Virus record (IMG/VR): IMGVR_UViG_3300049796_000007
Span: 1 to 42,399 of that record
Origin: a virus
DNA length: 42,399 nt
Direction: 5' to 3' (one strand)
Under the pieces are notes generated by a model. That model did not search any database, had not been told where the DNA came from, and was given only the letters and a program-made list of their open reading frames with translations. Position 1 is the first letter of the stretch, and every line of letters starts with the position of its first letter. This document shows, piece after piece, positions 399 to 42,399 of this stretch. A program made the position numbers and the translations under genes.

Positions 399-400
399 GA

Positions 401-413
401 GTCCCCAATATTG
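401..413. promoter_or_regulatory. Operator-like half-site over the repressor promoter
   Basis: GTCCCCAATATTG shares the GTCCC(C/G)A..TATT core with the full palindromes at 447-463 and 6391-6410, but its right arm (CACCG) is degenerate. It sits exactly on the inferred leftward -10 (407-412), where bound repressor would block its own transcription. Confidence 0.5.
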
Positions 414-435
414 CACCGAAACCCGCTCTTGACAA
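407..435 (-). promoter_or_regulatory. Leftward promoter of the repressor gene
   Basis: Read on the minus strand there is TTGTCA (435-430), a 17-base spacer and AATATT (412-407). That is five of six matches to the -35 and four of six to the -10 consensus at ideal spacing. Its -35 overlaps the TTGACA of the rightward promoter base for base (shared positions 430-434), so the two promoters are back to back and probably compete for polymerase. Confidence 0.55.
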
Positions 436-457
436 GGGGCTGTACAGTCCCGATATT
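429..457 (+). promoter_or_regulatory. Rightward early promoter
   Basis: A perfect TTGACA (429-434), a 17-base spacer and GATATT (452-457) precede the first early gene, which starts at 485. Transcription should start near 464. The -10 lies inside the palindrome at 447-463, the expected arrangement for repression by the divergent HTH protein. Confidence 0.7.
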
Positions 458-463
458 AGGGAC
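447..463. promoter_or_regulatory. Palindromic operator, GTCCC-7-GGGAC
   Basis: GTCCCGATATTAGGGAC has perfect 5-base arms around an AT-rich centre and overlaps the -10 of the rightward promoter. The same half-site recurs at 401 and, as a longer palindrome, at 6391-6410, which supports it being a repressor site rather than chance symmetry. Confidence 0.65.
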
Positions 464-484
464 ATCACTAACAGGCGCCGCGCG

Positions 485-733
485 ATGAAAGTTCGCATCA
501 CTTTCGACTTAACCACGTCCACCCGCAAGGCGATTGCCGGGCGTGTCGTTGGATACGGGGCTCGTCCGGCAAGCCACGATCGGTGCAGGCAGGTGATCGA
601 AGGGCTCGTCCGTGCCGACTTGGAGGTGATCGTGGCTGAGTACGACGCGGAGCACGCGTGCGCGAATTGCGGATGCCGTGAGCACTTGCCGAAACGGTGC
701 GGTACCTGCGAGTGCGTTTGGGGGAGGGCCTGA
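485..733 (+). CDS. Small protein with C-terminal zinc-ribbon-like cysteines
   Basis: First gene of the early operon, 82 residues. The N-terminal half (about 1-55) looks like an alpha/beta fold with no motif I recognise. The last 25 residues carry CANCGC and RCGTCEC, six cysteines spaced like a zinc ribbon or knuckle. There is no good Shine-Dalgarno; the ATG follows the inferred transcription start by about 20 bases. The next gene begins three bases after its stop. Its position directly behind the repressed promoter makes it an immediate-early gene, where phages often encode small host-interacting or regulatory proteins, but nothing in the sequence fixes a function. Confidence 0.6.
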   Translation: MKVRITFDLTTSTRKAIAGRVVGYGARPASHDRCRQVIEGLVRADLEVIVAEYDAEHACANCGCREHLPKRCGTCECVWGRA

Positions 734-991: not shown

Positions 992-1243
992 ATGCCGAAG
1001 AAAGGGAAGACTCGCGTCCGCTATGTGATCGCCGCACATCCGATCCAACAGGCGATTTTCCATATGGTGCAGGGGAAGGGGATTGACACGCTGTCGCTGC
1101 GCGGCATCGCGGTCGCTATCGGATTGGACCCGGTCTATCCGCAACAGATCAAGCATCATCTCACGGTCATGATGAAGTACGGTTTTTTAGATGTGGTCGA
1201 AGGGAAGTATCGGGTTGGCTCACTCTTGAAGAAGAAGCAATGA
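992..1243 (+). CDS. Small winged-helix-like phage hypothetical protein
   Basis: 83 residues. After a basic N-terminus come HPIQQAIFHMVQ, SLRGIAVAIGLDP, then QQIKHHLTVMMKYGFLDVVEGKYRVG. This reads as two helices, a recognition-like helix and a short beta wing, the expected order for a winged helix. I have seen similar proteins (IA..IG.....Q.VKHHL..M.KYGFL) in other phage early operons without an assigned role. A strong GGAGGAGGA (975-983) precedes the ATG. The stop overlaps the start of the next gene (ATGA). DNA binding is an inference from predicted structure only. Confidence 0.65.
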   Translation: MPKKGKTRVRYVIAAHPIQQAIFHMVQGKGIDTLSLRGIAVAIGLDPVYPQQIKHHLTVMMKYGFLDVVEGKYRVGSLLKKKQ

Positions 1244-1455
1244 TCTACTGCGCGGTGTGCGGATCAAGGGTCGGTGTCACCGGCCCGTGTGGAACCTGCA
1301 AGCGCAACGAACGCTGCGCCAATCAAGTTCTACAGGGCCTCGTCGCCTTTATCGGCAGCGGGCATATCACCCGTGGGCACTTCCCAAAGACGCTGACGGA
1401 GTTGTCCGACGACTGCTGCGAGTACGTCGCCGCGCTCAGCCGTGTGCGGGTATGA
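1240..1455 (+). CDS. Small cysteine-rich protein
   Basis: 71 residues. The first 27 carry CAVC, CGTC and a further C (MIYCAVCGSR, GPCGTCKRNERC), a zinc-ribbon-like arrangement. The rest is helical with a CC pair and no recognised domain. It overlaps both neighbours by the ATGA mode, so it is translationally coupled within the early operon. Function unknown. Confidence 0.55.
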   Translation: MIYCAVCGSRVGVTGPCGTCKRNERCANQVLQGLVAFIGSGHITRGHFPKTLTELSDDCCEYVAALSRVRV

Positions 1456-1700
1456 CAAAGGCTGGCACGGAACCGCCGATGCACACGCTGCGCTGCTGCG
1501 AGCACTGTGGACATGTGCGCTACGTCCTCGACGGCGCGTGGCTCCGCTGGTACCGCCAATCTATCGGCTGTGGATTGCGCGAGCTGTCGCGCCGGAGTGG
1601 CCTCTCGGCTGCCTATCTTTCGGACGTGGAACGCGGGAACCGGCCAGTCACGTACCGCGTGCAGTGCGCCTATGTACCCACACCCAAGCAAAGGAAGTAG
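1452..1700 (+). CDS. Zinc-knuckle plus XRE-type HTH protein
   Basis: 82 residues. A CCEHCGHVRYV knuckle at about residues 15-25 is followed by a clear helix-turn-helix, LRELSRRSGLSAAYLSDVERGNRPVT (about 43-68), the Cro/C1 signature with the ERGNR turn. The product probably binds DNA and may regulate phage or host promoters. It is the second HTH protein under the left switch and could serve as an early Cro-like or transcription factor, but no binding site can be assigned. The start overlaps the upstream stop (ATGA). Confidence 0.7.
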   Translation: MTKAGTEPPMHTLRCCEHCGHVRYVLDGAWLRWYRQSIGCGLRELSRRSGLSAAYLSDVERGNRPVTYRVQCAYVPTPKQRK

Positions 1701-5605: not shown

Positions 5606-6154
5606 ATGTCTTGGCGAATGAACGAACTGTGGAGGATGCTAGACGATCCGGACACCGATCCCGTGTTGCTGCGTGTGTATCGGTGGCTGTTGCAGTGGCC
5701 AGAAGCGCACGCCTTCGCGACGATGCTGGACCCAGCGGAAGTCGCGCGCGCGACAGGGCTATCCGCTGATGCCATCGACGGCGCGCTGCGCGAACTGGCC
5801 GAGAGCGGGCGCCTCACCATTCACGAGACGCGCGCCGATGGCGTGATGTGGTTCACGCTCGCCCTCAACGTCGCCACGGTTCTAGAGAGGCGGCCGGCGC
5901 TCATCGTTGAGCGGACTCCGAAGCCGCCCCGCGAACAGACGCGCGCCATCACGCTGAACTTGCGGTGGGCGATCCTCGAACGAGACGGCCACAAGTGCCG
6001 CTCATGCGGCGCGACGGTCGACGACGGCGCGAGGCTGGAGATCGACCACATCAAGCCGTTCTCGAAAGGCGGACTCACCACACCGGGCAACCTTCAAGTT
6101 CTTTGCTACGATTGCAATGCCGGGAAGCGCGACCGGTGGATAGAGCTCGCGTGA
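5606..6154 (+). CDS. HNH endonuclease with N-terminal winged-helix-like domain
   Basis: 182 residues. Residues 1-95 are helical and end like a winged helix (DPAEVARATGLSADAIDGAL, ELAESGRLTIHETR), probably a DNA-recognition domain. Residues 110-180 form a zinc-bound HNH domain: RWAILERDGHKCRSCGA, LEIDHIKPFSKGG, NLQVLCYDCNAGKRDRW, with both CxxC pairs, the DH pair and the Asn/Lys of the final helix intact. The ATG at 5606 lacks a Shine-Dalgarno; a second ATG at 5618 is possible. The stop overlaps the next gene (GTGA). It could be a free-standing homing-type nuclease, a host-degrading or exclusion nuclease, or part of a two-gene unit with the coupled LuxR-like HTH. Confidence 0.8.
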   Translation: MSWRMNELWRMLDDPDTDPVLLRVYRWLLQWPEAHAFATMLDPAEVARATGLSADAIDGALRELAESGRLTIHETRADGVMWFTLALNVATVLERRPALIVERTPKPPREQTRAITLNLRWAILERDGHKCRSCGATVDDGARLEIDHIKPFSKGGLTTPGNLQVLCYDCNAGKRDRWIELA

Positions 6155-6384
6155 CACACCTCTCGCAACGCGAGCTCGACGTGGGTCGCCTTGTGGCTCA
6201 GGACCTCACTGATAAGCTGATTGGTGATATCCTCGGCATCAGTGTGCACACCGTACAGGAGTATCTTGACCGGATTGGCAGGAAGATCGGTGTCGGCAAA
6301 GGCAGGCGTTCTCGTCGTCGTATCATTGCGCGGTGGATGGAGCAGCACGACCCACACCAGCGCTCCGCATCTTCGGTAGGGTAA
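6151..6384 (+). CDS. LuxR/GerE-type HTH protein, copy 1
   Basis: 77 residues: LSQRELDVGRLVAQDLTDKL, IGDILGISVHTVQEYLDRIG, then a basic tail. This is a stand-alone LuxR-type (GerE) DNA-binding domain, with the L(T/S).RE.....A.G....IA..L.is..TV....... pattern and no receiver or autoinducer domain. It starts at a GTG coupled to the HNH stop. A second stand-alone GerE protein is coupled to the terminase gene at 9397. Its stop (6382-6384) lies inside the large hairpin that surrounds the operator at 6391. Likely a late-gene transcription factor or co-regulator, by inference from position. Confidence 0.75.
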   Translation: MTHLSQRELDVGRLVAQDLTDKLIGDILGISVHTVQEYLDRIGRKIGVGKGRRSRRRIIARWMEQHDPHQRSASSVG

Positions 6385-6436
6385 CGGTACTGTCCCCACT
6401 ATTGGGGACACGACGGCAGTACCGCCGTGCCCTACC
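6375..6436. repeat. Nested inverted repeat between early and packaging genes
   Basis: Three concentric arm pairs lie around one centre: GGTAGGG (6375-6381) with CCCTACC (6430-6436), CGGTACTG (6385-6392) with CAGTACCG (6417-6424), and TGTCCCC (6391-6397) with GGGGACA (6404-6410). As RNA, the outer arms could form a long stem-loop acting as a terminator or processing site; as DNA, the inner one is operator-like. There is no T-tract, so classic intrinsic termination is unproven. Confidence 0.55.
6391..6410. promoter_or_regulatory. Second full operator-like palindrome, before the packaging genes
   Basis: TGTCCCCACTATTGGGGACA has perfect 7-base arms. It shares the GTCCC arms and the TATT centre with the site in the left switch (447-463), 6 kb away. 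I see no consensus -35 beside it, so it could be an operator for a weak promoter, a roadblock, or a looping partner of the left switch. Confidence 0.55.
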
Positions 6437-6444
6437 CTGCCAGG

Positions 6445-6927
6445 GTGCCCACTCGCCCCCTGCGCATCTGCTCCCACGCTGGTTGCCCCAACACCACGGA
6501 CCGTGGGCCGTGCGCCCAGCACCGGCACCAGCGTGAGCGCACTCGGCCTTCCGCAGCGAAGCGTGGCTACGGGGCCAAGTGGCGGCGCGAGAGCGGTGAG
6601 TACTTAGCCCAGCATCCGCGCTGCGAGTGCGCTGCGCACACGGGCAAGCCTGACGCACCCCGCTCCACCACGGTCGACCACATCGTGCCCCACAAGGGCA
6701 ACCAGCGCCTCTTCTGGAGCCGCCGAAACTGGTGCGCCATGGCGAAAGTGTGCCACGACGCCAAGACGGCGAGCCAGGATGGCGGATTCGGCAACCAACC
6801 GCGCGATGTGAGCTCCAGTGGCTCTGGGGGGGGGCAGGAAATCTTTCAGGCCCCCCCCCAGCCGAGACCGCGCGGTGCGCTGATTTTTCAGCGTACGCTT
6901 CCCGGCCAAGAGCCTCTCCGAGCCTGA
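6445..6927 (+). CDS. HNH endonuclease adjacent to terminase
   Basis: 160 residues from GTG 6445; a GTG at 6427 is in frame but lies in the hairpin arm. It has an N-terminal zinc knuckle (LRICSHAGCP, then GPCAQH), then YGAKWRRESGEYLAQHPRCEC, VDHIVPHKGNQRLFW, NWCAMAKVCHDAKTASQDGGFG. This is the HNH family found beside phage terminases, exemplified by HK97 gp74, which is required for cos cleavage and packaging with TerL. Catalytic DH (VDHI), N and H (CHDAKT) are present. The conserved part ends near 6795; the last 45 residues are read through the G9/C9 hairpin and are Gly/Pro/Gln-rich, so they are probably a non-conserved tail. Confidence 0.85.
   Translation: MPTRPLRICSHAGCPNTTDRGPCAQHRHQRERTRPSAAKRGYGAKWRRESGEYLAQHPRCECAAHTGKPDAPRSTTVDHIVPHKGNQRLFWSRRNWCAMAKVCHDAKTASQDGGFGNQPRDVSSSGSGGGQEIFQAPPQPRPRGALIFQRTLPGQEPLRA
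6824..6861. repeat. G9/C9 inverted repeat in the HNH-TerS junction, candidate packaging site
   Basis: CTGGGGGGGGG (6824-6834) and CCCCCCCCCAG (6851-6861) are perfect 11-base arms separated by 16 bases that themselves hold CAGGAAATC and TTTCAGG. The element lies in the unconserved tail of the HNH gene, just before the small terminase, where cos sites and TerS-binding sites usually lie. Use as a packaging site is inference from place and shape; an RNA hairpin or terminator is the alternative. Confidence 0.45.
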
Positions 6928-34580: not shown

Positions 34581-34934
34581 ATGAATCTCGGCCCGTTCGT
34601 GCCGTATCGGCCCCCGCTCTCCATCCCGTTCATCCTCGCGACCGGACGCGGCGTGCACAGCGAGCGGCTGGCCCCATCGGGTGAGACGATCTACTACGCC
34701 ATCACGACCGCGGGCGGGCTCCTGAATGCGGAGATTCGTCGTCGCATGGAAGACGAGACCGAGGCGATGATCGTGCGCGACATGTGGCGCGACCTGGACC
34801 GGCAAGACGCGACGGTTACTCACCTGCCGCTCTGCCTCTACGTGGACGGCCGCCGGCAACCCGACGCCGCTCGGCCAGTGCTGCATCATCAAGCGCCGCC
34901 TGGGCCTCAATGGAGGGCCGCTCGGCGTCGGTGA
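34581..34934 (+). CDS. Hypothetical protein converging on the right repressor
   Basis: 117 residues: LGPFVPYRPPLSIPFILATG, SETIYYAITTAGGL-like, IRRRMEDETEAMIVRDMWRD, LPLCLYVDGRRQPDAARP. I know no family. The last 118 bases overlap, on the opposite strand, the C-terminal end of the repressor gene, and this part (HHQAPPGPQWRAARRR) is low-quality protein. Either the gene really overlaps or its end is a recent extension. It is the only rightward gene between cargo and right switch. Confidence 0.5.
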   Translation: MNLGPFVPYRPPLSIPFILATGRGVHSERLAPSGETIYYAITTAGGLLNAEIRRRMEDETEAMIVRDMWRDLDRQDATVTHLPLCLYVDGRRQPDAARPVLHHQAPPGPQWRAARRR

Positions 34935-35190
34935 AGTGGTGATGGGTCGTCGGGTTGAGCTCCGCAACGACGCCATACCGCAGGTACGCCGGGGTCACGC
35001 CAAAGAACTTGGCGAGCTTCTGGACGGCGGCCTCGTTCGGGATGCGCTCACCACGCTCCCAGCGCGAATAGGCCGTCACGGAGACGCCGATGGCGTCCGC
35101 GATCTCCTTCTGTTCAATGTCGCGCCGCGCCCGGACAGCCATTTCCCGGCGCGCCTGCGCGATGCCTTCGCTAAGTAGTTGCCAGGCCAT
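34816..35190 (-). CDS. XRE/C1-type repressor, right switch
   Basis: 124 residues. Residues 8-72 are a canonical Cro/C1 domain: IAQARREMAVRARRDIEQKE, IADAIGVSVTAYSRWERGER, IPNEAAVQKLAKFFGVTPAYLRYG. The WERGER turn and L...F.V...YL.YG end are typical of phage repressors. The C-terminal half has no LexA-type peptidase and is a charged tail (DAERPSIEAQAALDDAALAE, then RRGRAAGE), so induction cannot use autocleavage. It is divergent from the excisionase/MerR-like gene at 35314, with a promoter-containing gap of 123 bases. It is unlike the left repressor in sequence. Confidence 0.85.
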   Translation of the reverse strand: MAWQLLSEGIAQARREMAVRARRDIEQKEIADAIGVSVTAYSRWERGERIPNEAAVQKLAKFFGVTPAYLRYGVVAELNPTTHHHFTDAERPSIEAQAALDDAALAERRRVAGGRPRRGRAAGE

Positions 35191-35228
35191 CGCTTACCCG
35201 CTGTGCCACGTGAAACGACAAATTGGCC

Positions 35229-35252
35229 ATTGACAGAACCAGAACGGTCAAT
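35229..35252. promoter_or_regulatory. Inverted repeat ATTGAC-12-GTCAAT in the right switch
   Basis: ATTGAC (35229-35234) and GTCAAT (35247-35252) are perfect 6-base arms. They cover the -35 and most of the spacer of the rightward promoter, a suitable operator for the divergent repressor. It does not resemble the GTCCC operators of the left switch. Confidence 0.5.
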
Positions 35253-35257
35253 AGATT
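35230..35257 (+). promoter_or_regulatory. Rightward promoter of the second early operon
   Basis: Perfect TTGACA (35230-35235), a 16-base spacer and TAGATT (35252-35257, four of six). Transcription would begin near 35264, about 50 bases ahead of the first gene. Confidence 0.5.
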
Positions 35258-35313
35258 GCTACCTGTTGTTGTGACACTAACAAGACAGACACCAACCAAC
35301 GGAAGCTACCGAG

Positions 35314-35526
35314 ATGCCCACGGTCCGCAAGGAGATCAAGATGGAGCGCGAGGACGAGTGGATGACGCTGCAAGCTGCGGCTGATGCGCTGGGCGTCACC
35401 CGCACGACCGCCCTCGCGCTGATCGTGAAGGGCGACTTAGTTGGCCAGCACATCGCGAAGCGGACAGTCGTCCGCCGCGACACGGTGAACGCGCTGGTCG
35501 CTGCGCGCGCCGCCGTCGTCGCCTAG
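35314..35526 (+). CDS. Excisionase/MerR-like helix-turn-helix protein
   Basis: 70 residues. The core EWMTLQAAADALGVTRTTAL, ALIVKGDLVGQHIAKRTVVR is the HTH_17 (excisionase/MerR-like) pattern: (l)t..eAA..LGVsr.t...li..G.l......kr.rvr..d...l. It may act as a recombination directionality factor or as a Cro-like regulator of the operon. No integrase is visible in the window, so I do not call it Xis. It is the first gene to the right of the second switch. Confidence 0.75.
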   Translation: MPTVRKEIKMEREDEWMTLQAAADALGVTRTTALALIVKGDLVGQHIAKRTVVRRDTVNALVAARAAVVA

Positions 35527-41056: not shown

Positions 41057-41283
41057 CCCTCGCCGCGGCCGAGAGCCTCGCGCTCATGGGACAGCCGCTC
41101 GCCTGGGACGGCTACGGCCGCCAGCCGCTACGCGACGTCCCCGATCCCGTGCTCCGCAAGGCGCGCGGCTTCTTCTCGCGCGTCGAGCAGATGAGTCCCC
41201 GCGTCAAGGAGCAGATCGAGGCGATCACCGTCGTCCTCGAGGACCGCGAAGCCCGCAGCCCGCAGCACTCCCTCAGCCTGTAG
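41053..41283 (+). CDS. Small hypothetical protein
   Basis: 76 residues (MTLAAAESLALMGQPLAWDG, YGRQPLRDVPDPVLRKARGF, FSRVEQMSPRVKEQIEAITV). Two amphipathic helices appear likely. No motif recognised. It is translationally coupled to the preceding gene and ends about 30 bases before the next. Confidence 0.5.
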   Translation: MTLAAAESLALMGQPLAWDGYGRQPLRDVPDPVLRKARGFFSRVEQMSPRVKEQIEAITVVLEDREARSPQHSLSL

Positions 41284-41848: not shown

Positions 41849-42399
41849 TGGCGAAGCCCGCGTATCGGTACACGCAACTGCCCCGCGTCTGGCCTGGCAA
41901 GCAGCGCCCCGTCGGGTTCCACCGCACGGCGGGACGCTTCAAGGTGACCACGTGGAGCCCGATTGAGAACTTCCTCGCGAAGGAGCTCGGGTATCTCGGC
42001 GCCAAGGACGTGGTGGTTGCCATCGACATGCCCAACCCGTCGCAGTGGAACATGCAGGGCGCGCCGCGGGCCGACGCGCGCGCGGCCTCGCCGGCGGTGA
42101 TCGTCGCGTTCACCAGCAAGGACGGCGTGCGGCTCACCTTCCCGTGCGACACGTACAGCGATTGGCAGACGAACGTGTACGCCATCGCGAAGTCACTGGA
42201 GGCGTTGCGCGCAGTCGATCGCTACGGCGTCACGCAGGGCGACCAGCAGTATGTCGGGTTTAAGGCACTGCCGCCGGGCGGTGGCACGTCCACGATGACA
42301 CCGGAGAATGCCGCGGCGATTCTCGCGGAGTTCTCCGATCTGCCCGCGCACGTTATCCTGGCTGAGGCATCCGTCGCGGCCGTCGCCATCAAGATCGCG
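41848..42399 (+). CDS. DnaJ-like (J-domain-associated) phage protein, 3' truncated
   Basis: At least 184 residues, running off the window. Seen: YRYTQLPRVWPGKQRPVGFH, FLAKELGYLGAKDVVVAIDM, AVIVAFTSKDGVRLTFPCDT, YSDWQTNVYAIAKSLEALRA, VDRYGVTQGDQQYVGFKALP. I recognise the phrase (A.. I...LealR.vdRYGv....qQY.GF.aLp) as belonging to a family often annotated as J-domain-containing in phage and plasmid genomes; the proper J domain would lie in the missing C-terminus. If correct, the product may recruit host DnaK. The domain call is provisional. Confidence 0.6.
   Translation, partial: MAKPAYRYTQLPRVWPGKQRPVGFHRTAGRFKVTTWSPIENFLAKELGYLGAKDVVVAIDMPNPSQWNMQGAPRADARAASPAVIVAFTSKDGVRLTFPCDTYSDWQTNVYAIAKSLEALRAVDRYGVTQGDQQYVGFKALPPGGGTSTMTPENAAAILAEFSDLPAHVILAEASVAAVAIKIA

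Follow-up and report, generated by a model that had tools for sequence, protein, structure and literature searches.

The intergenic region at positions 399-484 of the phage DNA analysed here (the window, 42,399 nucleotides) is probably the control region of a small divergent regulatory module, which would work as a self-limiting repressor of an early operon. The parts of the module are two promoters, two related operator-like sequences and one 81-aa protein, P0001 (Table 1), and it is most likely, judging from the sequence, that P0001 is a strong repressor of the early promoter and a weak one of its own. As had been predicted, the HTH gene is divergent from the early operon: HTH_26 is found on 153-398, a run of rightward genes starts at 485, and the control region lies between them, which is the layout of the CI/Cro type.

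Table 1. Features of the two regulatory regions and of neighbouring genes in the window
Feature	Position	Strand	Description
Rightward (early) promoter, -35	429-434	+	TTGACA
Rightward promoter, -10	452-457	+	GATATT; 17-bp spacer from -35
Leftward (repressor) promoter, -35	435-430	-	TTGTCA
Leftward promoter, -10	412-407	-	AATATT; 17-bp spacer; extended -10 TG ahead
Putative strong operator OR	447-463		GTCCCGATATTAGGGAC; covers rightward -10; 6/8 dyad pairs; binding predicted
Putative weak operator OL	401-417		Degenerate mirror copy, 12/17; covers leftward -10; binding predicted
Predicted repressor P0001	153-398 (incl. stop codon)	-	81-aa Cro/C1-type HTH protein; Pfam HTH_26
First rightward gene	485-733	+	82 aa; conserved MKVRITFDL N-terminus, Cys-rich tail; four phage relatives
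Protein of rightward operon	992-1243		Sub-threshold LexA-type winged-helix match
Second DNA-binding candidate	1452-1700	+	82 aa; HTH_31; fifth gene of rightward run
GerE/LuxR-type HTH protein	5965-6384	+	Downstream
HTH_3 protein	34816-35190	-	124 aa; weakly P22 c2 repressor-like, 32.5% over 83 aa
Promoter TTGACA-16-TAGATT	35230-35257	+	Between HTH_3 and HTH_17 genes; only other strong rightward promoter of the window
HTH_17 protein	35314-35526	+	70 aa; faces HTH_3 gene

The coordinates and letters given for the promoter region in the original prediction were correct on rechecking, and so were its overlapping -35 boxes, its 17-base spacers and the mutual exclusion of the two promoters. Scored as sigma-70-type promoters, a consensus which may not be that of the host's sigma factor, the rightward promoter TTGACA-17-GATATT (429-457, +) agrees with 10 of 12 consensus positions and the leftward promoter TTGTCA-17-TGCAATATT (435-407, -) with 9 of 12; the latter also bears an extended -10 TG, visible in TGCAATATT and missed at first, which strengthens the weaker promoter of the pair. 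Five bases (430-434), inside the 7-mer TTGACAA, are common to both -35 hexamers, and with their core elements overlapping the two belong to the class of overlapping divergent promoters. Because the -35 boxes overlap, RNA polymerase cannot occupy both promoters simultaneously, as has been stated for overlapping promoters (PMC4207663). Rightward transcription is expected to start at about A464, with a leader of about 21 nt, and leftward transcription at about 400, so that the predicted starts lie back-to-back some 64 bp apart. The leftward ATG (398-396) begins 9 nt past the -10 and about 2 nt from the predicted start; the leaderless repressor message of the original prediction would thus be near-leaderless, its leader being none or about 2-3 bases.

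Such a pair is rare in this DNA, which has 67% GC. When at most one mismatch in the -35 and two in the -10 are allowed, the 42.4-kb window holds two rightward promoters (429 and 35230) and one leftward, and two of these three form the pair; 429-457 is one of the two best promoters on the + strand and 435-407 the best on the - strand. Both of the strong rightward promoters adjoin a leftward HTH gene. A shared--35 pair with five mismatches or fewer in total occurs once in the window, and one this good was obtained in 1 of 20,000 dinucleotide shuffles of the 86-bp region.

The prediction that operator-like sites lie over both -10 boxes also held, at 447-463 and 401-417, and in both promoters the -10 box is followed by one base and then GGGAC. 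In the window, 447-463 is the sole occurrence of GTCCC-N7-GGGAC. When 401-417 is aligned with the reverse complement of 447-463, 12 of the 17 positions agree, and the two sequences lie in exact mirror register about base 432; a half-site had been proposed at 401-413, and while the sequence is indeed related, it is better described as a degenerate full-length copy of 17 bp with one good half. The mirror-register sites are related sequences at both promoters, and binding of the 81-aa regulator to them is a prediction. Only three of eight self-dyad pairs are found in 401-417, which counts against our preferred reading. Since the window has four further places that match at 12/17 or near it, one of which is counted double because its registers overlap, it is the placement of 401-417 and not its match score that carries weight. 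Three GTCCC/GGGAC motifs fall in the 86 bp where 0.17 are expected (Poisson P 7e-4, for a motif picked post hoc), and one other triple of equal density is present in the window, starting at 41088. Moreover, inverted repeats with 5-bp arms and 3-9 bp spacing appear in 28% of the shuffles of the region (1123/4000), so the palindrome alone is weak evidence, and the placement of the putative operators matters more than the palindrome by itself. A candidate for a third operator at 6392-6409 (GTCCCCACTATTGGGGAC) was rejected, because a very stable RNA hairpin has its tip there. This nested hairpin (6360-6450; -48.1 kcal/mol, z -4.3) lies between the LuxR-type HTH gene and an HNH endonuclease gene, and no Rfam family matched it.

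DNA binding by P0001 is suggested by its membership of the HTH_26 family (E 2.3e-5; 25 bits against a cut-off of 22, and 24.5 bits in the genome search), and no second domain was recognised in the protein. Two observations count against the preferred reading: no relatives of P0001 were found among viral contigs, genome contigs, annotated phages and plasmids, and its structure model has modest confidence (pLDDT 68). This model gave no significant fold match, and the models of P0001 and of the 485-733 product are too weak to indicate a fold partner or a dimer interface. As for the mechanism, we propose that the 81-aa protein would bind as a dimer, first at the 447-463 palindrome, which would shut the early promoter and incidentally free the leftward promoter of its competitor; at a higher concentration of P0001 the degenerate site 401-417 would be occupied as well, and its own synthesis would be limited. 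The outcome would be a buffered, self-limiting repressor of the operon starting at 485.

Such a role has to be weighed against a double-negative switch of the CI/Cro kind, with the protein encoded by 485-733 or by 1452-1700 as the repressor of the leftward promoter. We regard this as unlikely. The HTH_31 domain on 1452-1700 speaks for it, as does the fact that temperate phages commonly have a repressor gene facing away from that of a second DNA-binding protein (PMC4557955); however, the HTH_31 gene is the fifth in the run and not the first, the product of 485-733 has no recognised domain and its model, a predicted helix-helix structure, matches no fold, DNA-binding folds included, and no second type of operator was recognised in 399-484. 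The four relatives of 485-733 (L003-L006) are in other contexts, two of them (L003 and L005) in ordinary gene runs of the same direction, and no shared promoter was seen beside any of the four, L006 having no more than 40 bases upstream. For 737-985 no relatives were found, and none of the early genes tested is shared by any of the 59 terminase-related loci. The record is that of a tailed phage, with genes for terminase, capsid, portal, tape measure and RecT; it begins and ends within genes (1-150 and 41849-42399).

A second divergent pair of regulators is located at 34816-35526, and a spaced inverted repeat, ATTGAC-N12-GTCAAT (35229-35252), lies over the promoter between them. No GTCCC motif was found between 34471 and 36489, so the GTCCC type of operator is not common to the two modules. 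With two regulator modules in the record, the one at 399-484 need not be the main immunity region, and it may serve as a secondary or operon-specific control rather than as the sole lysis-lysogeny switch.

The original prediction had pointed to related phages for the same arrangement. Among its terminase relatives there is none: no shared--35 pair was found, even with six mismatches allowed, in the 59 terminase-related phage contigs, which total 624,539 bases. The layout was met elsewhere by scanning for an idealised geometry (ATTATA N15-17 TTGACAA N15-17 TATAAT), which gave at least 120 stretches against 23 in all for a control with a scrambled middle. Among the 120 matches listed, 18 are between divergent ORFs, whereas 22 of the 23 controls are inside an ORF as defined by a simple ORF caller; 34 '++' and 44 '--' contexts are also among the matches listed, so much of the excess comes from strong one-way promoters, among them those of one repeated contig family with a similar leftward protein of about 155-180 aa. 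At one locus (L056) the match lies between two HTH_3 genes, with the same layout and an unrelated sequence. The scan suggests that other phage contigs also have the shared--35 layout, in this one instance with an HTH gene on either side.

In L008, L015, L021 and some dozens of comparable loci, a consensus shared--35 pair is located about 25 bp upstream of a leftward gene for a protein of about 155-180 aa, which we presume to resemble the T4-like late sigma factor gp55, and the rightward promoter aims into the 3' end of the neighbour gene, as if making antisense RNA. The exact promoter-operator pattern of 399-484 was not found in viral contigs. The looser pattern TTGACA-N10-13-GTCCC-N7-GGGAC gave 21 stretches elsewhere, most of them inside ORFs. 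The best of these belong to another GC-rich phage (L150, L152, L160 and L168), where TTGACA-17-GATAAT has its -10 within a perfect GTCCCGATAATCGGGAC palindrome; they are flanked by terminase and portal-like genes, a divergent repressor being absent, and as a related switch they are suggestive at most. Apart from these, three GC-rich contigs (L155, L159 and L165) are dense in GTCCC, with 98 in 12.4 kb, 53 in 4.9 kb and 29 in 1.2 kb, some of them over a TTGACA-led promoter-like site, which looks like a dispersed family of repressor sites or repeats.

It is also conceivable that a single promoter of the pair is functional, the other being a by-product of pseudo-symmetry which gives low-level divergent RNA without regulatory meaning. 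Symmetrical elements often let bacterial promoters transcribe in both directions (PMC12825309), and many matches of the idealised geometry lie elsewhere than between divergent genes. We nevertheless consider this improbable, for here both directions run straight into an ORF, and on the leftward side the -10 is extended and the start codon falls at the expected transcription start.

The arrangement had further been predicted to be bistable even without a second regulator, and in this form the claim was not supported. Further regulators do exist in the record, namely the HTH_31 protein, the GerE/LuxR-type protein and the HTH pair at 34816-35526. Moreover, a repressor that closes both promoters is a negative feedback, and exclusion turns it into a net positive one only if the early promoter is blocked at a lower repressor concentration than the repressor's own. 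In an equilibrium occupancy model, which leaves out noise, initiation kinetics and activation of the leftward promoter, no bistability was obtained in 360 parameter sets without exclusion, nor in 90 sets where the promoters excluded each other and the operators were equal; when exclusion was combined with a 10-1000 times weaker self-operator, 27 of 270 sets were bistable, over a range of synthesis rates of at most about 2.2-fold. Exclusion alone is therefore insufficient for bistability, and according to the model exclusion together with operator asymmetry could suffice, narrowly. A true lysis-lysogeny switch with a single regulator, in which exclusion and a weak self-operator make the net feedback of the repressor positive, has this regime in its favour, and the asymmetry is in the needed direction, the better palindrome being at the early promoter; PMC4207663 cites Bendtsen et al. 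for overlapping promoters being switch-like, given unequal activity and a very different action of the regulator. However, the regime is narrow and in the grid shown requires a binding weight of the early promoter of at least about 30, other candidate regulators are present, and no tyrosine or serine recombinase (PF00589, PF00239) that could be the integrase was matched in the record, possibly a fragment; we hold such a switch to be improbable. In a cited study (of E. ...), promoter exclusion is consequential only at high occupancy. Still less probable is a one-protein switch in which shared--35 exclusion and unequal mirror operators make the autorepressor bistable as a secondary immunity module beside the P22 c2-like region. 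As a self-limiting repressor module, 399-484 nevertheless offers a very small natural test case for whether polymerase competition alone gives a regulator positive feedback on itself, and as the layout seems to recur in other phage contigs this question can be asked more widely.

The finding by itself fits known regulatory design: as a compact control that turns genes on or off it belongs to a general kind already known, as overlapping divergent promoters with an autoregulated repressor have been described before, and in open-access text we did not find a published phage with the exact shared--35, mirror-operator layout. In the Bacillus plasmid pLS20 (PMC4207663), the divergent promoters Pr and Pc overlap and cannot be used by polymerase jointly, and one regulator, Rco, acts as repressor of the main promoter and, once at a high level, restrains its own, as we propose for P0001. 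However, in pLS20 the -10 of one promoter is believed to double as the -35 of the other and vice versa, whereas here the -35 boxes overlap; activation is required there for the regulator's promoter; and the regulator, a tetramer, brings multi-site operators together by DNA looping, while the phage has one putative 17-bp site per promoter, with no looping partner found for the sites in 399-484. Mycobacteriophage BPs (PMC4557955) likewise has a small repressor divergent from the early promoter (Prep and PR), a palindromic operator at PR and a related, half-matching sequence over the start of the repressor promoter, but its promoters are not described with a common -35, its repressor is likely a tetramer and the repressor gene carries attP. 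Repressor and early gene are divergent too in lambda (PRM/PR) and in the telomere phage PY54 (cI/cro), and the cI message is leaderless in both, in PY54 by RACE and in lambda as stated in the same paper (PMC4488713). Lambda differs in its three operators, its competitor Cro and the activation of PRM by CI; the phage has two putative sites, lacks a recognised Cro and shows no activator site beside the leftward -35. Finally, the bidirectional promoter PacrA/acrR of E. coli (PMC12825309) resembles the module in its pseudo-symmetric DNA, which allows two orientations of polymerase, and in having an auto-repressor gene on one side; the E. coli bidirectional promoters have a common -10, and it is because the phage has a common -35 instead that its transcription runs back-to-back.
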